From assembly GCA_020721205.1 (NCBI GenBank), contig DYNF01000031.1, forward strand, positions 1 to 40,760: DNA of 40,760 nt. The letters are read 5' to 3'. Positions 3,920 to 32,486 of the stretch are shown here, piece after piece (within the stretch, counting starts at the first letter, position 1; each line of letters begins with the position of its first letter). The notes beneath the pieces were generated by a model, which saw only the letters and a list, made by a program, of their open reading frames with translations, was not told the DNA's origin and did not search any database. This DNA comes from Prochloron sp. SulCav_FS08_3_32_3330. Lineage in GTDB: Bacteria > Cyanobacteriota > Cyanobacteriia > Cyanobacteriales > DYNF01. The translations under genes and the position numbers were made by a program.

Positions 3920-4037
3920 TATTTTTCTTCTCAAAAATGTAACCACATTTACAACAATGATAAACCTGAAAGATAGAGCAATACTCTATCTTTTTTTCTT
4001 TGCATTTTGGACATTTTTTAGGTTTGATTTTTTTCAT
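3909..4037 (-). CDS. Zinc-ribbon mini-protein coupled to terminase
   Basis: A 42-residue frame on the minus strand. It starts MKKIKPKKCPKCKEKK, continues with VYHCCKCGYIFEKK and ends NIIP. CPKC (9-12) and CCKCGY form a four-cysteine zinc ribbon. Its ATG overlaps the terminase stop as ATGA, the usual sign of translational coupling, and its end overlaps the convergent plus-strand gene by 11 bp. It may help the terminase or act as a small regulator; this is inferred only from position. It is short but its composition and coupling argue that it is real. Confidence 0.6.
   Translation of the reverse strand: MKKIKPKKCPKCKEKKIEYCSIFQVYHCCKCGYIFEKKNIIP
3969..3997 (+). terminator. Rho-independent terminator of the HU operon
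   Basis: AAAGATAGAG (3969-3978), loop CAATA, CTCTATCTTT (3984-3993) and then further T residues. The T-run is on the plus strand, so it ends the HU transcript. The hairpin lies inside the convergent zinc-ribbon reading frame. Confidence 0.8.
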
Positions 4038-5446
4038 AAAGTCGAAAAATCTGGTAAGTAAATTGGACGATTATTCTGACAACTTGCCCACCACATTAAA
4101 CATCCGGCAACGGCACTGTCCCCATGTCTGAACCCTCCATCAATTCCTCTGATACGTTTGTCAGGAATTTTGACTTTCCCTTTCTCGTATATCACCATCC
4201 GATGATCCGCTAAAATATCACTATTTTTAGGTAATCTGATATTTTTATCTTCCATACTAGCTTTATATTTTGGGAAAGCCTCTTGATACCATTTTTCTGT
4301 AATTTGAACTTCACTGATTTTACCACGATACCGATCGCCCATAACTTCTGCGATATAATGTCCGTTTCCCCTCGCATCAATCGCTCCGCCCTGAAAATGA
4401 GGTAAAAAGTCACAAATAAAAAATAATATTTGTTCTTGTTGTTTGAAGGGGATATTTCTCATTTCTAAAGTTAAGAATGTTTCCCTAACTAAATTTTGTT
4501 TTTCCCTTGATATCATTAATACGGATAAATCCCCACTACGAGCAAAATCAAACCCCATATAACAATGCTCTGTGACCCCTTCTAGTAAAGGTAATATCGT
4601 GTCCTTAAGCCAATCTAAACATTGCTGATATCGTACCGTATCAGGCAATAAAGCAAAGTCAGAGGTAAGGGAATATCGAACTACTGGTAAATCAATCATT
4701 ACAGATTCAATTACCATTCTTGAAAAGTAAGACCCGCCACTATGACGGGGGATGCAGAATAACTCCTCATCTGCACCATCTCCATAAAATTTTACTAAGT
4801 CGTTTCTCCATATCGTCTCTTTTTCATGTGTATATTCCTGATTTGTTGATAAGCATATTCGTTTGTATAAACCATCTTGAAGGGCATTGTCTAGGGGAAT
4901 CGTATGTAATGAGTAAGGAAGTTTTCCTGCGGTAATATCTATGATCAGTTCATTGAAACTGGATTCATTCCCATTGTGAGATGATATCACTACTACTTTT
5001 CCCCCCCACATTAAGAATGCGTTGGCGGATTTTAATAACTCTGGTAGATCCTCATGGAATGCGGCTTCATCAATAATTGCCTTTCCCTGTCTTCCTCGTA
5101 GATTAGAAGGTCTTGAGGATAAAGCTAATATTTTAAATCCACTGCTAAACCGGATTTTAAAAGTTAATATATCTTTTTTCTCATCATCAAATATTTCCTG
5201 TTCAATTTCTGAAGCCACTAATTGATAGTTTTTTGCCCAAAATGCACAGTCTTCAATAAACTCCTCCGCCATGTCTTTGTTATATCCCACATAAAAAATA
5301 TCCATCCCTTTTGATGATGAAGCGGTAAGGGCTGAATCTGCCGCTTCACACCACGACAAACCAATCCGACGAGATTTAACACAAACTTTAATGGGGGATT
5401 TATCGCCGATCCATCTTTGTTGATATGGTAGCAATACTGCATTCAT
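4034..5446 (-). CDS. Phage terminase large subunit, Mu gp28-like
   Basis: A 470-residue packaging motor subunit. The ATPase part shows a Walker A-type KSRRIGLSW (24-32), Walker B AIIDEAAF (123-130) and coupling motif VVVISSHNG (151-159). The nuclease part shows MGFDFARSGD (297-306, Asp300), AIDARGNG (355-362) and a later GFRHGDSAVA stretch, giving the acidic cluster that cuts concatemers. The PYQQRWI opening and KSRRIGLSW motif resemble the Mu/FluMu gp28 group. It reads away from the portal gene, an unusual arrangement since terL and portal are normally co-directional. The reading frame is intact. No small terminase is evident. Confidence 0.88.
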   Translation of the reverse strand: MNAVLLPYQQRWIGDKSPIKVCVKSRRIGLSWCEAADSALTASSSKGMDIFYVGYNKDMAEEFIEDCAFWAKNYQLVASEIEQEIFDDEKKDILTFKIRFSSGFKILALSSRPSNLRGRQGKAIIDEAAFHEDLPELLKSANAFLMWGGKVVVISSHNGNESSFNELIIDITAGKLPYSLHTIPLDNALQDGLYKRICLSTNQEYTHEKETIWRNDLVKFYGDGADEELFCIPRHSGGSYFSRMVIESVMIDLPVVRYSLTSDFALLPDTVRYQQCLDWLKDTILPLLEGVTEHCYMGFDFARSGDLSVLMISREKQNLVRETFLTLEMRNIPFKQQEQILFFICDFLPHFQGGAIDARGNGHYIAEVMGDRYRGKISEVQITEKWYQEAFPKYKASMEDKNIRLPKNSDILADHRMVIYEKGKVKIPDKRIRGIDGGFRHGDSAVAGCLMWWASCQNNRPIYLPDFSTL

Positions 5447-5487
5447 AATTTATAATCTTAGTATTAATGTATTATTATTTTAATTAT
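5447..5487. promoter_or_regulatory. Divergent start region between terminase and portal
   Basis: A 41-bp AT-only stretch between two divergent starts. It holds TATAAT at 5451-5456 on the plus strand and TATAAA-like sequence on the minus strand. Any -35 boxes would lie inside the coding regions. Neither gene has a clear Shine-Dalgarno. This is the only room for a bidirectional promoter here. Confidence 0.3.
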
Positions 5488-6744
5488 ATGGCAATTAAAG
5501 AAACAAATTTTTTGACAAGGCTCTGGAATAATATTGTTAGTTCTATTCCCATTATCGGACGGCAAAGATCTATTACAACCTATAATTATCTTGATGATAC
5601 CACTGCGATCGGGCGGGAATATGATTTAGAAATATCGGAATATCCGATACGAAATCAGGAAAAAGCTTATAAATTGATTGAAATGTGGGAATATTGCCCT
5701 GAAGTTGCTAGTGCTATTGAAATCATTACTAATGATGTTTTTTCTAGCGATGATGGAGATGATCAGGGATTTAGTATTGGAGAATTTCTTAACGATGATA
5801 TTACTAAAATTGATCCTAAAATCAAATTAATCTTAGATAATTTAATCGAAAGATTAATCGGTGGTTTAGAGTTAGAAAGAGCAGTAGAAAGAATGCTAAT
5901 TTATGGGGATGCTTTTGCTAGTTTGGGGATTAATTTTCCTACAAATAAAATAGAAAAATTATTGTTTTTGCCTACATGGGAAATATTTAGAGTTGAGGAT
6001 AATTTTGGAAATTTAATTAGATTTGAACAAAGGCGATACTTGGCAAATAGTTTTGAGAATAAATATAATAATCAATCTCAAAATATTAAGCAAGGGGAAG
6101 CAATTATGTACCATCCATTGCAAATGATTCATTGGCGATTCAGGCAAAAAACTCTTTATGGGAGAAGTCTTTTTTTTGAATCAATTAGTGACTGGAATTA
6201 TTTAAAAGAAGCTACCGATGATTTAGCTTTTGCTTCTCGTAGTGTGGGAGTCAATCCTAATATTCATATAATGCCGGATTGCACTGATGAGGATTATCGA
6301 AAAGCTTATAAATTAGCTTATGAAGAAAAGAAAAAAACAGGGATGGTAACGGATTTTTATTTGATGTCAGGAGCGGATATTAAAAAGTTAAGTAGCACGA
6401 ATCCTGATATTAAAGCATTATCTGATACTGTTTTGATGTGGAGAACTAGAATTGTTATGAAATCCCATGTCCCCCCTTGGTTAATGGGATTGCCCACTAT
6501 TGGAGCGAGAGATATAGCTGGTCAACCTGCTTTAGCTTATGCAAGATTTATTAATAAAGTTAGAATGAATTTAGTCCAAGGGATTAGACAAATTTGTGAT
6601 TTAGAATTAGCATTAAATGATATTCCTAAAAATGAATGGAATTATAAAATAATTTTCCCTAAAATTGCTACTAATCCATACGGGAATAATGCTATTATTG
6701 ATGATGAATCTAGCAATAATAATATTGAAGATTTAGAAGAATAA
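5488..6744 (+). CDS. Phage portal protein
   Basis: About 418 residues from the ATG at 5488; an ATG at 5467 would add a hydrophobic MYYYFNY that is probably not translated. It has the portal pattern: KAYKLIEMWEYCPEVASAIE early on, ERMLIYGDAFASLGIN, MYHPLQMIHWRFRQK.LYGRSLF, then MWRTRIVMKSHVPPWLMGLP and a C-terminal helical part. This is closest in style to T4 gp20/large-phage portals with the conserved H.R and YG.S elements. Twelve copies form the ring through which DNA enters the head. The acidic tail (DDESSNNNIEDLEE) is usual. The frame is intact. Confidence 0.82.
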   Translation: MAIKETNFLTRLWNNIVSSIPIIGRQRSITTYNYLDDTTAIGREYDLEISEYPIRNQEKAYKLIEMWEYCPEVASAIEIITNDVFSSDDGDDQGFSIGEFLNDDITKIDPKIKLILDNLIERLIGGLELERAVERMLIYGDAFASLGINFPTNKIEKLLFLPTWEIFRVEDNFGNLIRFEQRRYLANSFENKYNNQSQNIKQGEAIMYHPLQMIHWRFRQKTLYGRSLFFESISDWNYLKEATDDLAFASRSVGVNPNIHIMPDCTDEDYRKAYKLAYEEKKKTGMVTDFYLMSGADIKKLSSTNPDIKALSDTVLMWRTRIVMKSHVPPWLMGLPTIGARDIAGQPALAYARFINKVRMNLVQGIRQICDLELALNDIPKNEWNYKIIFPKIATNPYGNNAIIDDESSNNNIEDLEE

Positions 6745-9254: not shown

Positions 9255-12200
9255 ATGGTTAGTATCGGAAGTGTTGAGTTAAATCTGAGATTAGATAGAA
9301 GTGAGTTTGATCGGGCATTAAATGATCTCAAAAAGACTGATCTACCTACGCTTACTCCTAAGATTGATATTTACAATCTTAGAAAAGCTGATATGTATGT
9401 GGATCGGCTTACGAAAAGATTTAAAGATTTACAAAGGACTTTTGATTCTAAACCGTTGACTCCTAAAGTTGATCTGAAGCAACTTCATGATCTAAATATT
9501 TTACTTGATAAAAAGCTTAGTCATTATAAACAGGTTCAGAGTTATTTTAATCAGAATCCTTTAAATGTAACATACAAAACGTCCTCTCAATCTGCATCTC
9601 ATTCTCAAGGAACATCCCCTAGTGGGTCGTCTCAGGATGGAGTTTCCACATCTCAGCTATTATCGGAAGTTCGAGGAATTTCAAGAAGTTTATCTTCAGG
9701 GGTTAAGGATTTTGCTGATGGGACGAAAACAATAGTAAATGCTGTCAAAAATCAAGGGAAAAAAGGGATTATTGGTACGATTGGTAGTGCGGTAGGGAAT
9801 ATGATTACCTCCCCAATTAAAAGTATTGGGACAGGGTTTACGGAAGAAATAGGCAGGAATATTTCTAGTGCGGTATCAAAAAAATCTATTTATTCCTCTG
9901 TAAAAAAAACAAGACAAGCACTAGCTTTTATTGATAATGAAATAATCGGATCTGCTCAAGTCTATGAGACTTTTTTTGCAAGTGTTATGGCTGGAAACTC
10001 CGTTAAAACAGCCTCAAAAGAAGCTGGTGGACGCACGAAAGTCATGAAATATATTAATCGTGTTAAGAAACTTCAGGCGATCGCAAATGCAAAACCGGAT
10101 GAGATAGTTAAGACAATTCAGGAACAAATTAAAGACGATGCTGAGTTATTGGAATTATATAATAAATTATCAGCAGAATTTATTGCAGAAAAAGGGGGGA
10201 AACCACGCCATCCTAAGATAGTAGCGGCGGCGGTAGGAGAGAAATTTGTAAAACAAGCTTCCCCTCAGCAATTGGGATCAAACGTGATCATGCCAATGGT
10301 GAATCAACTTCAACCATTATTAAAATTCATACAAGGGCTTCAAGCATATAATACTTCAAAACTTTCCGAAAGGATTGTCAGAGAAAGAGAAGCAGGATTT
10401 CCTAAACTCAAAAAAGGGGAAAATGTAATTTCTGTAATAGGGGGAGCTCAAAATTTAAAAGGGCAAGGGGGAAGACAAATATCAATGGCATTAGAGCCAT
10501 TAATGCCCGGCTCTCGATTAATGCCTGTTGAGAATTTCGATACAGATGCGTCCAAAAGAACTGAATCAGTGGACAAAAAAATTAAAGCTTTAATACCTAC
10601 TCTTTTCCCCGGTATGGAAGGCATAGCAGATACAGTTGTTAATGCAGCACGTCAGATTGCATTCGCTCTCAATCCGAAAGGTTCATCTGTAGGTGCTGCT
10701 CAAGCCTTAGCTAATACAAAATTAGCTAGAAAACAGGGAAACACCGGAGGAGCAATGTCTTTTTCCCTCGGTGGTGCGGATGCTTACAGGTATGCACAAG
10801 CGGCGGAATATGAAGGAATAGATACCAAAGCATTAGCTATGGCTTTCCCTTTTTTGAATATTGCAGATAATACTCCTAAAGGATTTCAAGCGGCGATGGT
10901 AGAGAAGGATCCTCTCACTTTTCCAGTCAATATTGAGGCAAGGAATAAAAGCGAAAAATTTAATATTTTAGATGATACTGGAATCGGAACATCTAGTGCA
11001 TCAGTACATGGGTTGCACCATTTATTCAAATCCCCTGTTTTCCAGAAATTGTTTTCTAATATGTCTGGACAACGACTCCCCAATATCCCAGCTTCTGACT
11101 TGTCGAGTATAGTCCAAGGCTTGATGGAATTAAAGAAAGTTTTAAGTGGGCTAACAGGAATAGAAAGCTTTAAAGAAACAGGGAATGTAACAGCAAATTC
11201 CCCTTTCATGGAGGAGAATAGCATAAAGACAGCAATGGAAGCATCAACATCTTTTCATTCTATAGATACTTTAGAAACAAATACTAAAAGAAGCAAAAAA
11301 CCAGAAGAAGTTGCAAATATTCAAAAAGTTGTTGATATTTTTCGATCTATGATGATCAAAACTTCTCAAGAAATAAAAAAACAATTTTCTTTGTCGGGAG
11401 TTTCTACTCCTGACAATCTTGGCGACTTACAGGGATTTTTAAGGTACATAGACGAAGTAGAAAAAATTAATAATGTTTTACTCAGTTTTAAAACAGGGGA
11501 ACTACAGCCCGATTCATGGTTTGCTGGGAAATTAGAACCAACAGAAATGGCAATAAGAAATAGAGAATTAAAAACGGAAACACTCCCTTGGTTTAAAAAG
11601 CAACCGCAATTTGGGGAATATGGAAAAATATTGGTTGTTACTTTTGAAAAGATTTTAAAATTACAGGAAGAATTTATCAGAACTAATGGGAATTTATCTC
11701 CAGAAACAGTTGAGAGTATTCAATTATTAGAAGATCCGACTGCCGATTTTTCCCCTGAACTTTTAAACTTATTATCTATCAAGGGCGGTGCGGATACTCA
11801 ACGAAAAGAGGAAATTGCTAGAATCTCAGAATTGAATATTCCTCCGCAATTCAAAGAAAATCAAGCGGCGATTTTAGCATTCAACAAACTTCTCAAAGCA
11901 CTAGGAACTAAAATGCCTGATATCAATAAAATTCAAAGTTTGGGATTTGGATTTTTAGGCGGAAATCTTGAAGAAGACCCAGGGTATGGCGTTCCTAATA
12001 GTGCGGCTCTAATATCTGAAGATTTGGTATATAAAACGGCTCTTGACCCTGAAAAAACAGGAATGATTGCTACGGATAATGAAATTTTAGCTCACGAAAA
12101 ATTGCAAGGAAGATTCTCCCCATTGTTATATGAAGGAATAAAAGGGGAAGCTCTTGTAACTGAAAGATTACAAGGTAATCCTCTTCAAAAGATGTATGAT

Positions 12201-15200
12201 TTTTATGGGAAAAAGCTGAAAAATTTTAAAAAACAGTTGGAGGATGAAACCAAAAAAGGGGATAAAGGTGATAAAGGAACGATAGAAAAGATAAAAGAAG
12301 AAATAAAACAAACAGAAAAAACTGTTCAAGATTATTCAGAAAAATATTGGGAGCAAGTAGGGCGACTCGGAGCTACTTTTCATGAGATGGGGATTGCTCA
12401 CAATGATTTATCAAGCGGAAATGTATTTATTGATAAAAACGAATCGGGGGATTTGGGAGTTACGGGAGCTATAGATTTCGGACAAGCTACTATAGATCCC
12501 ACAGATTTTGATAAATTACAGGATATATTTATCACAATTCAAAGAGTTGCGGGATTAGCAGACATAATCCCAAATATTGGGAGCGTAATTCAAAGAATTA
12601 TTGCGGGTTTCAAAAAACCGTTTAAACTCCCCAACGAACGCACGATAGACCCAACAAAATTAACCCCCGCCACCGCAGGGGTAGCCATACCATTAGGTAC
12701 AGACAAACAAACTATTTTGCAACAACACGTTGGTGAATTTAGCCCATTAGCAGAGATTCAGGAAACGGAAACTCAGGTATCTGAAATTCAAATTGGTATG
12801 GAAGATATCCTCAAATCAGCAAAAGAAATAGGGTTAATCCTCCCAGAAAGGACTAGAGAACCTGTCCTCGTCTCAACAACAAGGGATCCTTCACGAAATC
12901 AGAAAATTAATGCAAAAGAAACAACTGAGATGCAAAAAAGGATAAAACAGGCTTCTCAAGATGTTATCAAGTTTCAAAAACAACTTGATAACATCAATCA
13001 CTTCAATCCTAAAGAATTAATAGCACAAGTTCAAACAATATCTACGTCATTTAATTCTGCTATCGCAACAGCGAATAATGCTCGATTACATGAGGATAAT
13101 CCAGAAAAAGCTAAGATATATTTCAAAACTTTAATAGATAGTTTTGACTCAGCAAAATTAGATATCAAACAGGCAATCGAACAGATTAATTTAGCTGTTG
13201 AAAAACAACTAATCCCTCCGTCTGAAGCAGAAAAAGTTAAAAAGAAAATCAATTCTTTATTACAGGGGATTGGGAAATCAAATGCCTACGCAAAAGGCTC
13301 TTTTAAAGGTTTAGTTGATGCAGAAAAAATAGGGAAAGAAATTGAAGCTAGTCTCAAAGGAATAGATGCTTCGGAGTTAGGAGTTCAATTAGCTCAAGAA
13401 GTAATTGAAGGAGCGGAGGAAAAGTTTGAAATTAAATCCCCTTCTAAAGTTTTCATAAGAATCGGAAAACAATTAATGGCGGGGTTAGAGAACGGGATTG
13501 ACTCAACTTCTGCAATGGAATTATTTCAATCATTGGTAGAAATATCTGAGGATATTTCCCTAACCGACGGGATTAGGGATTCTTTAAATACAGAGCTTAG
13601 TGAGATAGGAAAAGGGATAAGTAAAGCTTTATTATCAGGGACTAACCCGAAAGGAATGGAGAAAAATATTAAACAAGCTTTAGCAATTATCAAAACTGCA
13701 TCAAGTCATGATTTGAAAGAAATTGCTAAGGCGGCGGAAGCCACAGGGCAAGGAGTAATTGAGTTTTTAAGTAATCCTCAATTACAGGAAACTATGGGAT
13801 CTGCTTACGAAACAGTATTTGATTCGATAGCTTCGGGGCTATTAACTGTAGATCAGGTTGCTGAACAAACTCTTGCTCAACTAGGAGAAGTTGCCACTTC
13901 AGAACCTGTTAAGCAAGGTTTTGAACGATTAACTAGCGATATAGGAAATTTCTTTGAGGAATTTACAACCAATTCCCCCATACTAGGAAAACTGATAACA
14001 TCGTTAGGAGCGGGAATTAAAAATTTTGGGGTTGCTATTTTAGCTGGAATTGGGATAAGCCAGTTTTCTGAGCAAGTTATTCAATTTACAAAAACAGCTT
14101 TTGAGGCTGCTAAACATATTGAATCCCTCAAGATAGCCCTTAATTTTTCTACTGCGGAGGGTGGGGTCCGAACAATTCAAAGATTACGAGAGGAAGCGAA
14201 TCAATTGGGGGTTAGTTTCATAAAATCGGCTGAGGGCTATCAACAATTAAGTGCCGCAACTATGGGAACTAAACTACAACCTCAAACTCAACAAATCTTT
14301 AAAGGGTTTCAAGAAGGGATGGCAGTGCGATCTTTGCCAACAGTTCAGCAAGAATCTGTATTCAGAGCCATTTCTCAAATCGCATCAAAAGGACGGGTAA
14401 GTTTGGAGGAACTCAATCAACAATTAGGTGAGGCTATGCCGGGCGCTTTACAATCCGCCGCCCGTGCGATGGGGGTGACCAGTGGTGAATTAATTACTAT
14501 GGTAGAAAATGGTCAGATTTTAGCTGAGGATCTGTTGCCCAAACTTTCTAACCAATTAAGCATGGAGGCTCAATCGGGGTTGGGTGGTGCATCAAAATCA
14601 ACCCAAGCTCAACTAAACCGATTAAATAATACGATGGAGGAGTTACAAACTGGAATAGGGGCAACTACTCTATCCTTAGCTAAAATTGGGCTACCTATCT
14701 TCAATTCCGCATTAAAATTTGTTGTTGATAATTTGGCAATTGTCGCTATTGGGGTGACTTCATTGTCCTTAATATTAATTGCTAAATTATTCCCTGCTCT
14801 TGTGGCTGTTCTTGGTGCGTCTGCTTCTGGTGCTGTGGCTCTTAATGCTTTTGGTATCCAAGCTTTAATTGCCACATATCAAGCGAATGGATTAACGGGA
14901 GCTTTATTATTTGTGGGGAAAGGGTTTGGCTCTTTACTTTTATCAGCTTTACCTTTGGTTGCGATCGGTGTTACGATTGCTACAATTACCAAAGCTTTTA
15001 CCCCTTTAAATGAACAAATAAAACAAGCTTCTGAGAATTTAAAAAATCTTAATAAACAAAAAATTTCTCAGGATATAGTTACTCAGATCGATACATCGAA
15101 TGGATTATCAGATTCCAGTCGTCAGCAGTTAAGAAATCAACAACAGAAAGACAAACCTAAATTTTCATGGAGTACATTAATCCCCGGTAGCGGGATAATA

Positions 15201-18200
15201 GATTTGTTTAAAGATCAGTCTTGGTCAAAAACTGTACAAAAATATAATTACGCTAATGATTTTAATTCAGCCATAGAAGATATTGACAATTTATTAAAGA
15301 AAACTCAATCTTTGAAGAATTTAGAAATAGGAAAAACTGTAATTAATGATATTGATAAACAAATTAAGGATAAACAAATAGCCATTGAGGTTGCAATAAA
15401 CACTGGGCAATCTCGCCCAATGATAGATCAACTAAATCAGCAATTAGCTGATCTACAAGGAACTCGAACCGTAGCAATTGATAATTATATTCCTGATTAT
15501 TCATCAACGGTTTCTGCCCTAACTGAAGCAGAAACTATCTTAAACGAATTACATAAAGATTTTAAAGATGGGAAAATAACTGCATCGATGTACGAGCAAG
15601 GATTAGATAGTATTATTCCACGAATAGAGGGATTAACGAAGAAACAGAAACAATATGATGATGTTATAAAAACAAATATTGATAATATCAAACGAATGAC
15701 TTATGCTTTATACCAAGTTAAAAAAGGAGCTTTAGCATTAGAAAATAGCTTAACAATTCAACAGTTAACTTCTCAAAATCAATTCCTCAATCAACGTGCA
15801 AAAGGGGAAATAGGAGATATCGGACTGCAAACAGGACAGACTGGAATTGATGTGGCTATAGCTAAAACAAAAGTCGAAAACAACCGTGATATTCTTGCCC
15901 AATTACAATCAGTATTTAAAGAAGAAATTTCGGCTGATACCCGTCGTCGTGTTGGGGAAATACTGAATTTAAGAGGAAGTATTGAGAGTAATATTCAAGA
16001 TTTATCTCCAGAAATGATTGATCTAGCTATGAATGCGAATGGGAAATTATTGGAAAATCACCCGGAATTGCAACAAGCACTAACAACATTACAAGAGATA
16101 ACAAGAAAACGTCAGGAAGGATTGACTCTTGAAAATCAATTAGCCCAATCTGAGGTGACTAGAAGAAAAGAAGAAGAAGCTAGTTTAAATCGGCAATTAA
16201 TAAAAGCTCGACAGTTGGCGGATGCTAAGTTTCAAGGGGAATTACAAGCTAATCAATCTCAAGCTTCTGCTGATTTAATTGCATTACATAAATCAAGATT
16301 GCAGGGGAATTTTACTCCTGAAATTGCACAAATGAAAGAGACTTTAATTAACTTGCAAAAAACAAATAATGATCAACAGGATAAAGCTACTAGAATTAAC
16401 TCATTAGCTAGTGAATTAAATAAACCACTAACAGAAAGCATTAAAAAAAGTTTAAGTTCTTTATCTGGAAGAAATATTAGAAGTGCCGGACAAATTTCTG
16501 GTGCAGAAGCGACAGCATTGCTCAGTTTGGAATCGGATCAACTAACCCCAGATGTTAGAGATATTCTTGAGAAGATACAAACTGTGCGTAATCTTTCTAA
16601 TGAATTTCACCAAGAACAGGCTACCTATTGGGGAACTATTGCTGGAGAACAAAATAGAATTATTCAAGAAATTAAATCTTTTAATGACCAAACTAGAGGA
16701 TTAAATACTCAATTAATTTCTACAAATAAACAGTCTATTCAATTAGCAAAAGATTTTATAAGAAGAAATGACAACCTAACTACTCCCGACGAAATTAGAG
16801 GGATTAGAGATGCGGTTTATGGTGTAGAGAATGAATTTAAAGGCTATTCTGAATCTATTTTGTCACAAATGGAATCAATTAGAGAAAATTTAAGACAAGT
16901 AAAAGAATTAAAAAGACAAGGAGGTAATATTGAGGAATCAGCGAAAGAACTTTCCGCCTATGGTGTTAATGTTGATACAACTAATGTAACAAATTCCCTT
17001 GATTTATTTAAAAGTGCGGAAACTCAATTAAATCAACAATTAACTGATTTAGGTGGAGTTCTTAATAATCTCGGTTTTCAAGAAGTAGCAACGAAAGCGA
17101 AAGAATTAGTTAATCAATCAAAAACATTAAAAGATTCTGCTAAACAATTAGCTGATGAATATAAATCAATTATTGACTCTACTAAACAGTTTCAAAAACA
17201 AATTGATGAACTTGGTTTTGAACTTAAAAAGTTAGCAAAACAAGTTGAGTTTGCTACTATTAAATTAAACTTAAAAGCTTCTTTAACTCCGGGTATTAAT
17301 TCGATGTTTGATTCTATTATTAATGGGATCATTAGTTTGGTAGGAAATGTCCAACAATTTGCATTACAGGAATTAGATAGCCAACAGAAAAAGATGTCGC
17401 TAGGATTTGAGATTGATCAGATGCGAACCGAAGCTGAAGCTATGAAAATTCAAATTGATTCTGTCAATACTCAAAGAGCGTCACTAATCGCTCAAAAAGC
17501 CGAATTAGAACGTCAACGCAATGATTTATATGGACAATATAATCAAGTTAGAAACCAACGTAACGGCGGTAATCCGGTAGTAGCACAACAGATTAATCAA
17601 CAAGCTAATTTATTAGCTAATAGCATTAATAACTTAAATACTGCTATTAGCTCAATTCAGATTCCTCAAGCAATGGATTATTCAATTGTTGAACAAAGAC
17701 AATCTCAAATTAATCAGTTTGCAGGGATGCGTCAGCAACAACTTAATTATGAATCTCAACTTGCTGATATTCAAAATCAAGAAGCCTTATTAGATGGTGC
17801 GAACTCATTAATTAGCTCATATCAAAGTGTTATTGAAAATATTAATAACACAGCTAAAACTGTTCAAAAACAAGTAGATGATATTAGACGAAAAGGTTTA
17901 GAATTACTTATTGATCCTGAAAGTTATGAGGGCAGATTAACTCAATTAAAAAATCAAATTAATGATGAATATGATTCATTAGAACAATCTGCGAGAGATC
18001 AATTAAATCAAATTAAGAAAGAAATGGAAGGCTTGGGGGATCTCCGAGCTATGGAATCTCAATTACCCAGCTTGTTATCGTCACTTAGACAAAAAGGACA
18101 AAATGCTCAAGCAGACGCTTTAGAAAAATCAGTAAAAGAAGCTTCTGCTAATTTTGGAGTTCTGGAATCATCTTTTAATTCTCTTAATGGTGCGCTTGGT

Positions 18201-19478
18201 GAATTATCGGGACAACGTAGTAAAGCTTTACAAAAAGCGATTGATGATTTTAATAAAGAGATGCAAAATAAAATCAATGAATTTGAGCAAAATCAAATTA
18301 TTGAGTTTTATGACCTTCAAGGTTCTCGGATCAAGGATCGAGAACAAAAAGCTATTTATGAAGCCGAGGGAAGTCGTTTACGTCAAAATCTTGAGTTTGA
18401 TAAAGCCTCTGAAGAATTAAGTAAACTTATCAAAGAAACAGGGGTAGGGGCTGAACAAGCTCAACTGTGGCGGGACAGGTTACAAGCTATTAATGATATT
18501 AAATTAGATAATATTCAAGTTAAATTAGAAGAAACCCGCAAACAAATTGCAGAGGAACGCTGGAAAGCCCCATTACAATCAAGTATTGATTTATTCAATG
18601 CGGAAGCGGATGCTGAAATAGATCCTTTTGCGGCTGCTAATATTCGTGGTCAAGGCGCGATGTTAGAACAACAGATGTGGTTTTATGATCAGGTTCAAAA
18701 TATCTCAAAAATGCGTGAGGAGCTAGGGTTAACTGCTGAAGTTGCTAATCAAATGTATAACAACTTATACCGTATCAATGAGCTAAAAATGGACAAAATC
18801 AGGGAAGAAAGCAACCTTGTAGCTAAAGTTTTGAAAGAATCTGTCCAAAGTGCAATTGAGGAAAACTTAGCCAGTTTCTTCAAATTTGAACAGGATTTTA
18901 ACGCCACCCTTTCAGGGATTGCTAAATCAATATTGAAAACCATTGCCGACTTAGCCGCTAAAGCCGCCGCCGCTCAACTAATGAAAGGATTTATGGGAAT
19001 ATTTGGCGGACTTTTCGGAGGGATGTTTGGCGGTGGACCCGAAATGTCTCAATCCGTACCACAACTTTATGGACCCGGATTTTACAATGGTGGTACTGTG
19101 CAAAATTTTGCAGAAGGTGGCATCGTTCAAATGGGATTATCACTTATGTCTGCAATGGCAAAAGAGCGTTCCATGGGTGGACAACCTGTGCCGATTGTGG
19201 CGAGTGTAGGAGAGGAGATACTATCTACGAAAAGAGGAGATGCTCAATTTTACAGAATGCTACGCCAATCAGGAAAATGGGATTCCATGAAATTCGGAAA
19301 TTATAGCGATGGTGGCACAATCGGAAATATTAATTTCGGTGGTGGAGGATCAGCCAATAATGCGAATATCAATATTACAGTCATAACTCCTAATGCCGAC
19401 AGTTTTAAAAAATCCGAAACTCAAATAGGACGGGAGATTGGGGAAAGACAACAACGCTTCTATCATAGAAATACTTAG
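9255..19478 (+). CDS. Giant tape measure protein with embedded kinase-like and hydrolase-like domains
   Basis: A 3407-residue protein in one intact frame. The N-terminus (VSIGSVELNLRLDRSEFDRA) and Ser/Gly-rich linker near 110-130 are usual for tape measure proteins. Residues about 390-600 resemble a serine hydrolase: VISVIGGAQ strand, MSFSLGGADAYRYA with Ser504, KDPLTFP with Asp552, HGLHHLF with His585/588. Residues about 895-1100 carry a kinase fold: LGFGFLGG, Lys927 in LVYKTAL, TDNEILAHEKL, VTERLQG hinge, HNDLSSGNV (1049-1057), IDFG (1073-1076). KSPSKVFIRIGKQLMAGLEN is at 1394-1413, the classic tape-measure core at about 1618-1800, and hydrophobic segments at about 1812-1915. Long coiled coils follow to 3240 and the C-terminus is glycine-rich. 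It probably sets tail length and may enter the host with DNA. Confidence 0.9.
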   Translation: MVSIGSVELNLRLDRSEFDRALNDLKKTDLPTLTPKIDIYNLRKADMYVDRLTKRFKDLQRTFDSKPLTPKVDLKQLHDLNILLDKKLSHYKQVQSYFNQNPLNVTYKTSSQSASHSQGTSPSGSSQDGVSTSQLLSEVRGISRSLSSGVKDFADGTKTIVNAVKNQGKKGIIGTIGSAVGNMITSPIKSIGTGFTEEIGRNISSAVSKKSIYSSVKKTRQALAFIDNEIIGSAQVYETFFASVMAGNSVKTASKEAGGRTKVMKYINRVKKLQAIANAKPDEIVKTIQEQIKDDAELLELYNKLSAEFIAEKGGKPRHPKIVAAAVGEKFVKQASPQQLGSNVIMPMVNQLQPLLKFIQGLQAYNTSKLSERIVREREAGFPKLKKGENVISVIGGAQNLKGQGGRQISMALEPLMPGSRLMPVENFDTDASKRTESVDKKIKALIPTLFPGMEGIADTVVNAARQIAFALNPKGSSVGAAQALANTKLARKQGNTGGAMSFSLGGADAYRYAQAAEYEGIDTKALAMAFPFLNIADNTPKGFQAAMVEKDPLTFPVNIEARNKSEKFNILDDTGIGTSSASVHGLHHLFKSPVFQKLFSNMSGQRLPNIPASDLSSIVQGLMELKKVLSGLTGIESFKETGNVTANSPFMEENSIKTAMEASTSFHSIDTLETNTKRSKKPEEVANIQKVVDIFRSMMIKTSQEIKKQFSLSGVSTPDNLGDLQGFLRYIDEVEKINNVLLSFKTGELQPDSWFAGKLEPTEMAIRNRELKTETLPWFKKQPQFGEYGKILVVTFEKILKLQEEFIRTNGNLSPETVESIQLLEDPTADFSPELLNLLSIKGGADTQRKEEIARISELNIPPQFKENQAAILAFNKLLKALGTKMPDINKIQSLGFGFLGGNLEEDPGYGVPNSAALISEDLVYKTALDPEKTGMIATDNEILAHEKLQGRFSPLLYEGIKGEALVTERLQGNPLQKMYDFYGKKLKNFKKQLEDETKKGDKGDKGTIEKIKEEIKQTEKTVQDYSEKYWEQVGRLGATFHEMGIAHNDLSSGNVFIDKNESGDLGVTGAIDFGQATIDPTDFDKLQDIFITIQRVAGLADIIPNIGSVIQRIIAGFKKPFKLPNERTIDPTKLTPATAGVAIPLGTDKQTILQQHVGEFSPLAEIQETETQVSEIQIGMEDILKSAKEIGLILPERTREPVLVSTTRDPSRNQKINAKETTEMQKRIKQASQDVIKFQKQLDNINHFNPKELIAQVQTISTSFNSAIATANNARLHEDNPEKAKIYFKTLIDSFDSAKLDIKQAIEQINLAVEKQLIPPSEAEKVKKKINSLLQGIGKSNAYAKGSFKGLVDAEKIGKEIEASLKGIDASELGVQLAQEVIEGAEEKFEIKSPSKVFIRIGKQLMAGLENGIDSTSAMELFQSLVEISEDISLTDGIRDSLNTELSEIGKGISKALLSGTNPKGMEKNIKQALAIIKTASSHDLKEIAKAAEATGQGVIEFLSNPQLQETMGSAYETVFDSIASGLLTVDQVAEQTLAQLGEVATSEPVKQGFERLTSDIGNFFEEFTTNSPILGKLITSLGAGIKNFGVAILAGIGISQFSEQVIQFTKTAFEAAKHIESLKIALNFSTAEGGVRTIQRLREEANQLGVSFIKSAEGYQQLSAATMGTKLQPQTQQIFKGFQEGMAVRSLPTVQQESVFRAISQIASKGRVSLEELNQQLGEAMPGALQSAARAMGVTSGELITMVENGQILAEDLLPKLSNQLSMEAQSGLGGASKSTQAQLNRLNNTMEELQTGIGATTLSLAKIGLPIFNSALKFVVDNLAIVAIGVTSLSLILIAKLFPALVAVLGASASGAVALNAFGIQALIATYQANGLTGALLFVGKGFGSLLLSALPLVAIGVTIATITKAFTPLNEQIKQASENLKNLNKQKISQDIVTQIDTSNGLSDSSRQQLRNQQQKDKPKFSWSTLIPGSGIIDLFKDQSWSKTVQKYNYANDFNSAIEDIDNLLKKTQSLKNLEIGKTVINDIDKQIKDKQIAIEVAINTGQSRPMIDQLNQQLADLQGTRTVAIDNYIPDYSSTVSALTEAETILNELHKDFKDGKITASMYEQGLDSIIPRIEGLTKKQKQYDDVIKTNIDNIKRMTYALYQVKKGALALENSLTIQQLTSQNQFLNQRAKGEIGDIGLQTGQTGIDVAIAKTKVENNRDILAQLQSVFKEEISADTRRRVGEILNLRGSIESNIQDLSPEMIDLAMNANGKLLENHPELQQALTTLQEITRKRQEGLTLENQLAQSEVTRRKEEEASLNRQLIKARQLADAKFQGELQANQSQASADLIALHKSRLQGNFTPEIAQMKETLINLQKTNNDQQDKATRINSLASELNKPLTESIKKSLSSLSGRNIRSAGQISGAEATALLSLESDQLTPDVRDILEKIQTVRNLSNEFHQEQATYWGTIAGEQNRIIQEIKSFNDQTRGLNTQLISTNKQSIQLAKDFIRRNDNLTTPDEIRGIRDAVYGVENEFKGYSESILSQMESIRENLRQVKELKRQGGNIEESAKELSAYGVNVDTTNVTNSLDLFKSAETQLNQQLTDLGGVLNNLGFQEVATKAKELVNQSKTLKDSAKQLADEYKSIIDSTKQFQKQIDELGFELKKLAKQVEFATIKLNLKASLTPGINSMFDSIINGIISLVGNVQQFALQELDSQQKKMSLGFEIDQMRTEAEAMKIQIDSVNTQRASLIAQKAELERQRNDLYGQYNQVRNQRNGGNPVVAQQINQQANLLANSINNLNTAISSIQIPQAMDYSIVEQRQSQINQFAGMRQQQLNYESQLADIQNQEALLDGANSLISSYQSVIENINNTAKTVQKQVDDIRRKGLELLIDPESYEGRLTQLKNQINDEYDSLEQSARDQLNQIKKEMEGLGDLRAMESQLPSLLSSLRQKGQNAQADALEKSVKEASANFGVLESSFNSLNGALGELSGQRSKALQKAIDDFNKEMQNKINEFEQNQIIEFYDLQGSRIKDREQKAIYEAEGSRLRQNLEFDKASEELSKLIKETGVGAEQAQLWRDRLQAINDIKLDNIQVKLEETRKQIAEERWKAPLQSSIDLFNAEADAEIDPFAAANIRGQGAMLEQQMWFYDQVQNISKMREELGLTAEVANQMYNNLYRINELKMDKIREESNLVAKVLKESVQSAIEENLASFFKFEQDFNATLSGIAKSILKTIADLAAKAAAAQLMKGFMGIFGGLFGGMFGGGPEMSQSVPQLYGPGFYNGGTVQNFAEGGIVQMGLSLMSAMAKERSMGGQPVPIVASVGEEILSTKRGDAQFYRMLRQSGKWDSMKFGNYSDGGTIGNINFGGGGSANNANINITVITPNADSFKKSETQIGREIGERQQRFYHRNT
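10415..11040 (+). other. Possible serine hydrolase domain inside the tape measure protein
   Basis: Codes residues about 388-595. A strand and glycine turn (VISVIGGAQ) could supply an oxyanion hole. MSFSLGGADAYRYAQAAE matches the nucleophile-elbow pattern of lipases (S-x-G followed by a small-residue helix), with Ser504. EKDPLTFP gives Asp552 in a lipase-like DP context, and VHGLHHLF gives His585 or His588. The first position of the usual GxSxG is Ser rather than Gly, so this is a weaker call than the kinase. Confidence 0.45.
12012..12600 (+). other. Kinase-like domain inside the tape measure protein
   Basis: This stretch codes roughly residues 920-1115. In order: Lys927 in YKTAL (ATP lysine), candidate helix-C acids Glu943/Glu948, hinge VTERLQG, and a charged insertion of about 45 residues with GDKGDKG. 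Then the catalytic loop His1049-Asn-Asp1051 to Asn1056, IDFG at 1073-1076, and DPTDFDKLQDIFITIQ. The glycine loop LGFGFLGG is just upstream at about 898-905. All catalytic positions of the protein kinase/RIO/Bud32 superfamily are present, so it may be active. Substrate unknown. Confidence 0.72.
19099..19112. repeat. Palindrome TGCAAAATTTTGCA, copy 3
   Basis: Third exact copy in the phage region, here inside the tape measure gene where it codes VQNFA. A 12-bp version (GCAAAATTTTGC) is at 39741-39752 in a host gene, where the minus strand also codes VQNFA. Confidence 0.5.
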
Positions 19479-20545: not shown

Positions 20546-20797
20546 ATGGGAAAATACGAAAAACTTTTGATTAAAATAATAGAAGGTAAATCAGATGAAA
20601 ATATTGCTTTTGATGATTTGTGTAAACTTTTAACAAGATTAGGTTTTGAGCTAAGAATAAAAGGTAGTCATCATATTTTTAGAAAGGAAGGAATTACCGA
20701 AAAACCTAATTTACAAAAAGATGGCAATAAAGCTAAATCTTATCAAGTTCGTCAAATTAGAGATATTTTCATTAAAAATAATATTAAAGGAGCTTAA
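20546..20797 (+). CDS. hicA: HicA-like mRNA interferase toxin
   Basis: An 83-residue protein with the double-stranded-RNA-binding-like HicA fold pattern: FDDLCKLLTRLGFELRIKGS, HHIFRKEG, then KPNLQKDGNKAKSYQVRQIR. The conserved catalytic histidine lies in GSHHIFR. HicA toxins cut mRNA and are neutralised by HicB, encoded 2 bp downstream. It is slightly longer than minimal HicA proteins. TTGACA at 20511 may be its -35, but no good -10 follows and no Shine-Dalgarno is visible. Confidence 0.88.
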   Translation: MGKYEKLLIKIIEGKSDENIAFDDLCKLLTRLGFELRIKGSHHIFRKEGITEKPNLQKDGNKAKSYQVRQIRDIFIKNNIKGA

Positions 20798-20799
20798 AA

Positions 20800-21009
20800 A
20801 TGTATAAATATCAATTAGTTATGTATTGGGATAATCAAGATCAATTATTCATTATTGAAGTGCCAGAATTACCCGGATGTATGGCACATGGAGAAACTCA
20901 AGAAATAGCTTTAACTAATATTAAAACGGCTATAGAATTATGGCTAGAAACTGCTGAAGAATTTGGCGATCCTATTCCTGAACCTAAATATCAATCTGTA
21001 TTAGTTTAA
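20800..21009 (+). CDS. hicB: HicB-like antitoxin
   Basis: A 69-residue protein with the HicB pattern: YWDNQDQLFIIEVPELPGCM, AHGETQEIALTNIKTAIELW, and a proline-rich FGDPIPEP end. It is the short HicB form without a separate C-terminal DNA-binding domain. AAAGGAGCTT inside the hicA end serves as ribosome binding site. Toxin-first order is normal for hicAB. Confidence 0.9.
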   Translation: MYKYQLVMYWDNQDQLFIIEVPELPGCMAHGETQEIALTNIKTAIELWLETAEEFGDPIPEPKYQSVLV

Positions 21010-24586: not shown

Positions 24587-25768
24587 GTGATAACTCTAAC
24601 CCAACAGTTTAAACTTAAATTAAGCAAAAAACAAATACGGGAAATTGACTTTATGTTAGAAGTTAATTGCCGAGTATATAACTTTGCTTTGACAGAAAGA
24701 AAACACTGGATTAAGAGTAGAAAATCACCAATTAATGCTTGTTCAATTATTTCTGAATATATTATTCCGGCTGAAACTCCTTACCCAAATTACAATAATC
24801 AAGCTAAAAATTTAACTATTGCTAAGAAAGATAATCTTGAATTAAAATCAGTTAATGCTCAAGTTTTACAGCAGACATTAAAAACTGTAGATCGAGCTTT
24901 TTCTGATATGAAAACTAAAGGAAATGGTTTTCCGAGATACAAGAAAAAAATGCGGAGTTTTGTATTTCCAGCAATGCTAAAAAATTGTTTAGCAAAAGGG
25001 AAAATAAAACTCCCCCAATTAGGCTGGTTAAAGATTAGACAGTCAAGGGATTATCCGATAGGATTTGAGGTAAAACAAGCAAGGATTGTTAAAAAAGCAT
25101 CTGGATATTATGTGATGTTAACTTGGGTATCCCAAGAACAATGTCCAGATATACCAGTGGGTAAAACTAGCTTAGGAATAGATGCGGGAATAGAGAGTTT
25201 TGTTGCTACTTCTAACGAGGAATTAATCAAAGCACCTAAATTTTTATTGACATCACAGCGTAAGCTTAAATTGCTACAAAGAAGATTAAAACATAAAAAA
25301 ATAGGGTCTAATAATTGGTTAAAACTTCAACAGAAAATAGCTAAAATTCATGAACAAATTGCTGATACGAGAAAGGATTGGCATTTTAAATTAGCACATA
25401 ATCTCTGTGATCAAACTGACAATATTTTTGTAGAGGATATTAATTTTAAATCTTGGAGTAGAGGAATTGTTAGAAAACAATCTCTTGACTCAGGAATAGG
25501 GCAATTTATTAATGTAATGTTGCCTTATATCTGTTGGAAACGAGGTAAATTTTATCAGAAAGTTGACAAAAATTTTACCTCTCAAGAATGTCCTAATTGT
25601 CATCAAAAAACAGGCAAAAAATCACTTAATCAAAGATTACATAATTGTCAGTTTTGTGGATATCAAGAAAACAGAGATATTGCGTCAGCAAAAGTAATAA
25701 AAAATAGAGGATTAATTGCGGTCGGACAGCCCGTAATTCAAAATGCGACTATGATTTTAATGATTTAA
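24587..25768 (+). CDS. tnpB: TnpB RNA-guided nuclease of IS605-type element
   Basis: A 393-residue protein with the split RuvC active site: Asp199 in LGIDAGIESF, Glu283 in FVEDINF, and Asp364 in ENRDIASA. The zinc finger is Cys335-x-x-Cys338 and Cys354-x-x-Cys357. The start is GTG. All catalytic residues are present, so it should be competent. TnpB uses an omega-RNA made from its own 3' end and the element's right end to cut donor-site DNA. The guide here would begin right after position 25955 (TTAAGACGAGAAGG). Confidence 0.93.
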   Translation: MITLTQQFKLKLSKKQIREIDFMLEVNCRVYNFALTERKHWIKSRKSPINACSIISEYIIPAETPYPNYNNQAKNLTIAKKDNLELKSVNAQVLQQTLKTVDRAFSDMKTKGNGFPRYKKKMRSFVFPAMLKNCLAKGKIKLPQLGWLKIRQSRDYPIGFEVKQARIVKKASGYYVMLTWVSQEQCPDIPVGKTSLGIDAGIESFVATSNEELIKAPKFLLTSQRKLKLLQRRLKHKKIGSNNWLKLQQKIAKIHEQIADTRKDWHFKLAHNLCDQTDNIFVEDINFKSWSRGIVRKQSLDSGIGQFINVMLPYICWKRGKFYQKVDKNFTSQECPNCHQKTGKKSLNQRLHNCQFCGYQENRDIASAKVIKNRGLIAVGQPVIQNATMILMI

Positions 25769-31289: not shown

Positions 31290-32486
31290 ATGTCTAATCT
31301 TCTTGAATCAGTCAGCTTAATTGAACCGATGTTACCCGCCGACGGTACAAAAATACTAGAGGATTTGGCAACTGATTTAATTGTGAAAAGTTACAGTTTA
31401 GAAGCGGTAGTAAATCCAGTTATAACTCGAAATTTAGCGGATTTAGTGCGTTCTATGAACTGTTATTATAGTAATCTAATCGAAGGACATCATACTCATC
31501 CGAGGGATATAGATCGGGCATTAGCGGATGATTTTGCTATTGAACCGAAACAAAAAGCCTTGCAATTAGAGGCTAAAGCTCATATTGAGGTACAAAGGTT
31601 AATTGATTATCAAATTAAGCCTATTAATGTAGTAAGTGCTGATTATCTTTGTTGGCTTCATCGGGAATTTTGTCAACGACTCCCTGCTGAATTTTTGAGG
31701 TTAGAAAATTCACAAACGGGAGTAGAAATTCAACTTCAACCCGGAAAATTACGCACAGGGGGAGTAAAAGTAGGCTCCCATCTTCCCATTAGTGCTGAGG
31801 CTATTCCTCGCTTTTTACAACGCTTTGAACAGGCATACAATCCAAAACAATTCTCTAAAGTTCGTCAAGTGATGGCGATCGCCGCTTCTCATCATCGTTT
31901 ATTGTGGATTCATCCTTTTTATGACGGTAATGGTAGGGTAGCACGATTATTTTCCCATAGTTTTCTCAAGGAAATAGGATTAGGAAATGGTTTGTGGTCG
32001 GTATCAAGGGGATTAGCTCGTTCTGTGGCAGATTATCGCCGTTTTTTGATAGGGGCGGATCAGCAACGCTGGAATGATTGGGATGGACGAGGTAATTTAT
32101 CAGCGAAGGGATTAAATAATTTTTGTCAGTTTTTTCTGGAAGTTTGTCGAGATCAAGTAGATTATATGAGATCACTTTTACAACCAGAACAACTTTTAAC
32201 TCGCATTGAATTATATATTGAAGAACAAATAAAACTGAAATTATTACCTAAAAAATCTTTTAATTTACTAAGAGAAGCCCTATTATCAGGTGAATATGAG
32301 CGGGGAAAAGCCTCTCAAATTACAGGCTATCAGGAACGTCAGGCAAGAACAGTTTTAAATCAGTTAGTCAAAGCTGGGTTATTAGTATCAGATACCCCAA
32401 GAAGTGCGGTACGTTTGGGTTTTCCTCCTCAAGTGGTAGAGCGCTATTTTCCTAGTCTGTATCCTTCCTTTAATCTACACAGTTAA
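31290..32486 (+). CDS. Fic-domain AMP transferase with built-in inhibitory helix
   Basis: A 398-residue Fic protein. The catalytic motif HPFYDGNGRVAR is at 208-219 with His208 as general base. The N-terminal inhibitory motif is Ser61-x-x-x-Glu65-Gly66 (YYSNLIEGHH), which in class II Fic proteins blocks productive ATP binding through the glutamate. The C-terminal part (about 300-390) looks like a winged helix (LLREALLSGEYERGKASQIT, YQERQARTVLNQLVKAGLL), so it may control transcription or bind a partner. Fic enzymes usually attach AMP to Tyr, Ser or Thr of target proteins. No separate antitoxin is seen, in keeping with self-inhibition. TATACT near 31251 may be its -10. Confidence 0.93.
   Translation: MSNLLESVSLIEPMLPADGTKILEDLATDLIVKSYSLEAVVNPVITRNLADLVRSMNCYYSNLIEGHHTHPRDIDRALADDFAIEPKQKALQLEAKAHIEVQRLIDYQIKPINVVSADYLCWLHREFCQRLPAEFLRLENSQTGVEIQLQPGKLRTGGVKVGSHLPISAEAIPRFLQRFEQAYNPKQFSKVRQVMAIAASHHRLLWIHPFYDGNGRVARLFSHSFLKEIGLGNGLWSVSRGLARSVADYRRFLIGADQQRWNDWDGRGNLSAKGLNNFCQFFLEVCRDQVDYMRSLLQPEQLLTRIELYIEEQIKLKLLPKKSFNLLREALLSGEYERGKASQITGYQERQARTVLNQLVKAGLLVSDTPRSAVRLGFPPQVVERYFPSLYPSFNLHS

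Follow-up and report, generated by a model that had tools for sequence, protein, structure and literature searches.

We investigated a 40,760-nucleotide stretch of DNA from Prochloron sp. SulCav_FS08_3_32_3330 (contig DYNF01000031.1, one whole contig of a 4.73-Mb assembly in 209 contigs; hereafter the window), in which a phage tape measure protein bears a predicted kinase domain. In its left part the window has phage genes, namely those for an exonuclease, a dCTP deaminase, a terminase large subunit (4034..5446, minus strand), and a portal protein (5467..6744, plus strand), and the tape measure open reading frame (ORF; 9255..19478, plus strand), which encodes 3407 amino acids (aa). This ORF matches TMP_3 with 80.9 bits (cut-off 41), tape_meas_nterm with 52.6 bits (cut-off 21.35), and several PHROG tape measure families, and its position next to the terminase and portal genes places it in the tape measure class by context too. 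Along the protein, all on the plus strand, lie (i) an N-terminal region (residues 1-379; 9255..10391), coiled by eye and related to the N termini of other giant tape measures, among them L047, which is described below; (ii) an alpha/beta-hydrolase-like domain (residues 380-640; 10392..11174); (iii) a Bud32/APH-like kinase-like domain (residues 886-1126; 11910..12632); and (iv) the conserved TMP_3 core (residues 1615-1797; 14097..14645), which is found near the N terminus in ordinary tape measures. From about residue 1560 onward, the window protein is a normal tape. It combines hydrolase-like, kinase-like, and tape measure parts, that is, several unrelated domains in one protein, as polyvalent proteins do, and Pfam found no MuF domain in it.

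The kinase-like domain presents its motifs in order in one intact frame: the glycine loop LGFGFLGG (residues 896-903; 11940..11963); VYK, with the candidate ATP-binding Lys927 (12033..12035); VTERLQG (residues 968-974); the catalytic loop HNDLSSGNV (residues 1049-1057, with Asp1051 and Asn1056; 12399..12425); and IDFG (residues 1073-1076, with Asp1074; 12471..12482). When the ORF was shuffled 20,000 times, an HxD..N..DFG C-lobe pattern occurred once and the complete set of ordered motifs never, both patterns having been composed after the sequence had been seen. On a 316-aa piece, Pfam placed APH (28.5 bits, cut-off 23.2) and Kdo (24.6 bits, cut-off 21.3) over their cut-offs and Pkinase below its own (20.8 vs 31.7 bits); on the whole protein, APH was still over at 24.0 bits and Kdo just under (21.2 vs 21.3). 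The nearest NCBIfam model was arch_bud32 (TIGR03724; 34.9 bits, E 1e-8), whose equivalog cut-off of 125 bits was not reached. A sequence search of solved structures returned kinases or Bud32-type proteins as its best five matches (E 1.3e-4 to 0.02), followed by peptide deformylases at E 0.04. These profile and structure-sequence matches span mainly the hinge and the C-lobe, and the N-lobe, including Lys927, is indicated by its motifs alone. The nearest profile matches are thus atypical kinases of the Bud32, APH, and Kdo kinds; the domain resembles Bud32 without being a member, differing from it in its score (34.9 vs 125 bits), in a charged insert that precedes the catalytic loop (by eye), and in being embedded in a tape measure. 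Judged by its motifs and profile matches, the segment from residue 886 to 1126 is a Bud32/APH-like domain of the kinase superfamily and a predicted kinase. Kinase-PolyVal (PF18762) gave no match in the window protein up to E 10 and none in the genome, as was also the case in the control genomes. PADLOC matches to PD-T4-6 (best 4.6e-4 in the window and 2e-5 in L047) were weak, and we took them as generic kinase resemblance.

A second such domain lies in a 3853-aa tape measure from another genus (L047; genome G019, contig C124), which is akin to the window protein in both its N-terminal region and its core. Ahead of that core it carries, in order, LGTGWNGT, VIKF, HGDLHLNNV, and IDFG, and it keeps the catalytic residues as K998, D1120, N1125, and D1138. 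Pfam ABC1 is over its cut-off here, and the best NCBIfam model is arch_bud32 (8e-7), the same nearest model as in the window. As MAFFT did not align the two N-lobes correctly, their equivalence was assigned by eye; a profile of both kinases, searched against solved structures, again gave kinases best, weakly (0.006). Two other kinds of candidate were rejected. L010, the only other kinase match in 100 genomes (own genome included), is a cellular Ser/Thr kinase, CHASE2-like by eye and unrelated to tape measures, and two further matches in 386 genomes of the phylum (again with its own) were positioned behind the kinase, outside it. Among viral contigs, the N-terminal region of the window protein yielded seven matches, the aligned N-terminal regions plus kinase (two sequences) 59, and the first 1300 residues of L047 four, with none confirmed in any of these searches.

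Two doubts about the domain itself can be weighed at this point. It is extremely unlikely, and was already disfavoured, that the kinase motifs are a chance arrangement in a coiled-coil protein: while the single-sequence model is poor and only one other tape measure (L047) shows a kinase, the shuffles never reproduced the motif set, the profile matches reach 1e-8 and 1.6e-6, and the L047 kinase match falls in the corresponding region. Very unlikely, too, is a domain that is dead, serving as a nucleotide-binding plug, or that acts on small molecules in the manner of aminoglycoside kinases, as a metabolite, lipid, or sugar kinase. APH as the best Pfam family, over its cut-off, with Kdo next and Pkinase below, speaks for this, as does a C-lobe that seems short past the DFG (by eye); against it, the catalytic residues are all kept in both the window and L047, and Bud32 provides the nearest NCBIfam model for both.

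An earlier note on this DNA had described an apparent protein kinase fold within a tape measure protein, with its motifs in one intact frame and in canonical order; TMP_3, tape_meas_nterm, APH, and the motifs bear out the presence of a kinase-superfamily domain there, and the translation, shuffles, and profiles bear out the order. Its predicted kind (Bud32, RIO, or APH-like) fits the APH match over cut-off and arch_bud32 as the nearest NCBIfam model. LGFGFLGG is present as it had reported, but at residues 896-903 rather than at about 898-905; similarly, its range of 12012-12600 falls within the domain, but starts too late, the glycine loop lying at 11940-11963 and the domain at about 11910-12632. 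The fold that it called apparently complete agrees with the motifs and profiles, but gained no support from structure, the model of the kinase domain from a single sequence being of low confidence (predicted local distance difference test, pLDDT, 45.4). It had also named homologous tape measures as a check on the catalytic residues and on the fusion: L047, the only other kinase bearer found, keeps the Lys, Asp, Asn, and Asp and has the fusion, whereas most homologous tape measures have no recognisable kinase and some have another enzyme there. What it overlooked is the neighbouring alpha/beta hydrolase, together with the position of the enzyme region in an N-terminal extension.

Peptidoglycan hydrolases are well known in tape measure proteins. 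The hydrolase-like domain of the window protein has a Ser (Ser504, at 10764) and a His (His585, at 11007) that are invariant in 16/16 domains in each of two alignments, and Asp552 (at 10908) is a candidate third catalytic residue. Its model reached a pLDDT of 75.7 and a predicted template-modeling score of 0.74, and Foldseek ranked a cutinase, a feruloyl esterase, and a lipase as the top three matches (probability 0.96-0.98, TM-scores 0.25-0.38); the best E was 2.2e-3, with none at or below 0.001, and solute-binding proteins took ranks 4 and 6. Pfam gave no hydrolase match in the window protein itself, and Lipase_3 was over its cut-off in the relatives L118 and L120. On the conserved Ser and His and the predicted fold, residues 380-640 are an alpha/beta-hydrolase-like domain. 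The hydrolase was found in 12/388 genomes of the order, counting the window's own (11 clear and one weak, short match); in 6/27 and 6/192 genomes of two families of that order (the draws overlap and some matches are weak); in 4/42 genomes of a family outside it (one weak); and on eight viral contigs, one of which repeats a Desmonostoc sequence. Seven hydrolase loci have named hosts, namely UBA11372, a Prochloraceae metagenome-assembled genome, Desmonostoc, Nostoc, Xenococcus (two), and Pleurocapsa.

To place these enzymes relative to the tape, we compared the position of the core, counted from the preceding stop rather than from the start codon, between 24 ordinary viral tape measures, retrieved for the similarity of their cores with a two-sequence alignment (A3), and 28 hydrolase-bearing rows. 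The start of the core falls at residue 43-483 (median 86) in the ordinary set and at residue 705-2017 (median 1339) in the hydrolase-bearing rows. Seven of the 28 rows are repeats, leaving 21, and three more bring the total to 24 distinct tape measures, drawn from cyanobacterial genomes and viral contigs. L170 (an ORF of 1850 aa), which has a tape core but a hydrolase match of only 51 residues, is excluded from this count, and the independent lineages number fewer than 24, as L137 and L138 are near-identical outside the slot described below and L126 and L127 are 75% identical. The hydrolase precedes the core, inside a long N-terminal extension, in 24/24 distinct tape measures that have both. 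Because the core starts far downstream in the hydrolase tape measures, the enzymes are located in an extension that precedes the tape proper. Ahead of the core, the 24 ordinary viral tape measures show no match to the hydrolase, the HExxH motif, or a kinase.

Between the hydrolase and the core lies a slot, which holds a kinase in two of the 24 (the window and L047), an HExxH motif in four (L074, L135, L165, and L166, three of which read VHExRHAFQFDF), a second hydrolase in three (L129, L130, and L136), and ART-PolyVal, an ADP-ribosyltransferase (ART) family, in one (L138; 2.8e-13, over the cut-off). In the other 14 slots, Pfam recognised no second enzyme at limits of E 1 or 0.1, the scan extending to within about 70 residues of the core, and a strongly diverged enzyme would escape it. 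L137 and L138 share one sequence for their first 1100 residues, after which they diverge in the slot, the ART being in L138; the slot of L137 (residues about 1330-1600, also compared in L138) is ART-like by eye only, Pfam having found nothing in L137. The tape measures of L045 and L051 have HExxH motifs and no recognised hydrolase, and DUF6782, a putative metallopeptidase family of Pfam, is just under its cut-off in L045. The ORFs with these motifs are L045:3283-13524 (two motifs) and L051:6435-12485 and 13184-16255, one of which is a neighbouring ORF. The slot contents bear on whether the enzymes modify the virion, such that the kinase and the others would act on the tape measure or on tail proteins at assembly or ejection and would not be directed at the host. 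The domain is covalently built into a tail protein, and the HExxH peptidase-like stretches of the relatives could process the tape measure; we nevertheless regard this explanation as unlikely, because unlike chemistries in one slot favour changing host targets over a fixed assembly role, and because such motifs precede the core in 0/24 ordinary viral tape measures.

The hydrolase family also occurs on other carriers. L123:337-5277 (genome G014) encodes a 1647-aa protein with the hydrolase and a MuF minor head domain (PF04233; 30.7 bits, cut-off 29.6), and the contig also has a tape measure core, some 12 kb away. Its presence on a head protein as well as on a tail protein fits a virion-borne cargo. 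Genomes G781 and G789 have proteins with three hydrolase matches each and no tape core. The one in G789 (L168:3858-9104, 1749 aa) also has a HipA-like kinase match (E 2.8e-4), which is below the cut-off, as are several other matches in this protein; the ORF directly downstream is tape-measure-like by eye and has no core-profile match. Further, a cysteine motif, CxxGxPCGxxCxP, recurs in L168, in L169, and in ORFs neighbouring L168.

Only two of 50,697 phage records, both Cylindrospermopsis phages, have portal relatives at E 1e-5 or better, with 27% identity. One of the two, Cr-LKS4, tops the list of phages matched by the tape measure in covered length (26% identity over 15%), whereas better E-values are reached by other phages, with matches confined to the core. 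Cr-LKS4 has a stand-alone class 3 lipase gene (L011:20760-21362) near its tape measure gene, which matches the hydrolase profile weakly (12.8 bits). Since the right part of the window carries cellular genes, such as those for orange carotenoid protein, FtsH, DAHP synthase, and UbiA, the phage DNA is joined to host DNA. This host part also contains an OrfB_IS605/Cas12f1-like_TNB transposase-associated gene (24587-25768) and a gene for a Fic/DOC-domain protein (31290-32486). According to PHROG matches, a HicA/HicB-like toxin-antitoxin pair (20546-21009), one member of which we take to be HicA, follows the tape measure gene at a distance of about 1 kb.

These neighbours allow us to consider whether the element is an antagonistic, bacteriocin-like toxin carrier that acts between cyanobacteria, with the kinase and the hydrolase as toxins. 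We judge this distinctly unlikely. The hydrolase family is indeed found on a MuF protein, a described kind of carrier for effector domains, an ART occupies the slot of a relative (L138), and the HicAB-like pair is close by; however, that pair is the sole toxin-antitoxin or immunity candidate among the neighbouring ORFs scanned, and the terminase and portal genes point to a DNA-packaging phage.

Several known systems resemble this arrangement in part. As described in excerpts of Iyer et al. 2017 (PMC5512222), the polyvalent proteins of phages and conjugative elements are large, multidomain, and thought to be injected with DNA, and they combine unrelated enzymes, ARTs and kinases among them, much as ART-PolyVal fills the L138 slot here; the Pfam model of the polyvalent kinase group treated in these excerpts (PF18762) is the one without a match here. 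They differ in their carrier, which here is a tape measure; PMC5512222 contains the term "tape measure" 0 times and words beginning with "hydrolase" 0 times. The same excerpts describe MuF proteins as carriers of enzymatic effectors delivered by phages. The MuF polymorphic toxins of temperate phages, in the part of PMC5576092 available, are likewise virion proteins with exchangeable enzymatic domains, and they share the hydrolase family with the tape measures here, through L123. MuF is, however, a head component with C-terminal cargo (PMC9503650, in part), whereas the cargo here forms an N-terminal extension of the tail tape measure. Excerpts of PMC13277306 state that tape measure proteins in general lie in the tail lumen and are ejected upon infection, and that the tape-measure-related Sle1- and Tme-type effectors of contractile injection systems have variable domains, are loaded in a tail-like particle, and are ejected. 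In those excerpts, the functional domain of Sle1 is C-terminal and its particle is a phage-derived injection system, whereas the enzymes here are N-terminal to the core, and the tape measure adjoins terminase and portal genes. Virion-packaged enzymes are treated in PMC7824862 and PMC9503650, with none placed within a tape measure in the passages shown, and passages of PMC8876498 list a kinase-domain ORF separately from the tape measure ORF. In the open-access literature matches listed for effector or kinase domains with tape measures, no kinase is reported within the tape measure of a phage.

Taken with these comparisons, the domain order and the slot contents lead us to consider it probable that the kinase-like domain belongs to a set of several interchangeable enzymes carried as cargo in the N-terminal extension of a cyanobacterial phage tape measure. 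Chances are about even for the broader proposal that, in cyanobacterial phages, this extension is an exchangeable effector bay that delivers a lipase-like hydrolase together with a kinase, a metallopeptidase, or an ADP-ribosyltransferase into the cell during DNA ejection, as a tail-borne counterpart of the head-borne MuF and polyvalent effectors, kinases being part of its cargo. On this proposal, the tape measure protein would be located in the virion tail, its N-terminal extension would travel with the tape and be ejected alongside the DNA, and the ejected domains would refold inside the host cell, where the kinase would phosphorylate host proteins (or small molecules) early in infection and the hydrolase may act on lipids or thioesters. 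We infer delivery at infection, as the earlier note had suggested for the kinase, and both the swapping of cargo and the fusion of the hydrolase family to MuF strengthen this inference. The interpretation of that note is partly supported, and is here widened: the tape measures of cyanobacterial phages would carry a polymorphic effector bay at the N terminus, with the kinase as one cargo.

Several points weigh against such a bay. A folded domain of ~240 aa must unfold, or sit at the tube end, to be packaged in the tail. The kinase model is of low confidence, and the kinase region has no relative in the phage collection or in the plasmid collection; among viral contigs, it gave 85 pattern matches, and the aligned window and L047 kinases 186, with 0 confirmed in either case. 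Only 2/24 slots hold a kinase, the four HExxH slots have no Pfam peptidase match, and the second enzyme is unrecognised in 14/24. Extensions also occur with no recognised cargo, as in Cr-LKS4, whose core lies at residue 1005, and in L076, whose core lies at residue 643, neither of which has a hydrolase match. Finally, the window ORFs that were scanned included no recognised major capsid or tail-tip gene, and the element may therefore be partial or a remnant, although the tape measure reading frame is intact.

To our knowledge, little is known of the takeover mechanisms of phages that infect filamentous and colonial cyanobacteria. If the effector-bay reading is true, tape measure proteins would be a delivery platform for host-takeover enzymes in these phages, and contractile injection systems, with their tape-measure-related effectors, would have a direct parallel in phages. 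Whether a kinase can enter a cell by way of a tail protein would then become testable. More broadly, on this reading, "phage tape measure" annotations may conceal unannotated effector enzymes.

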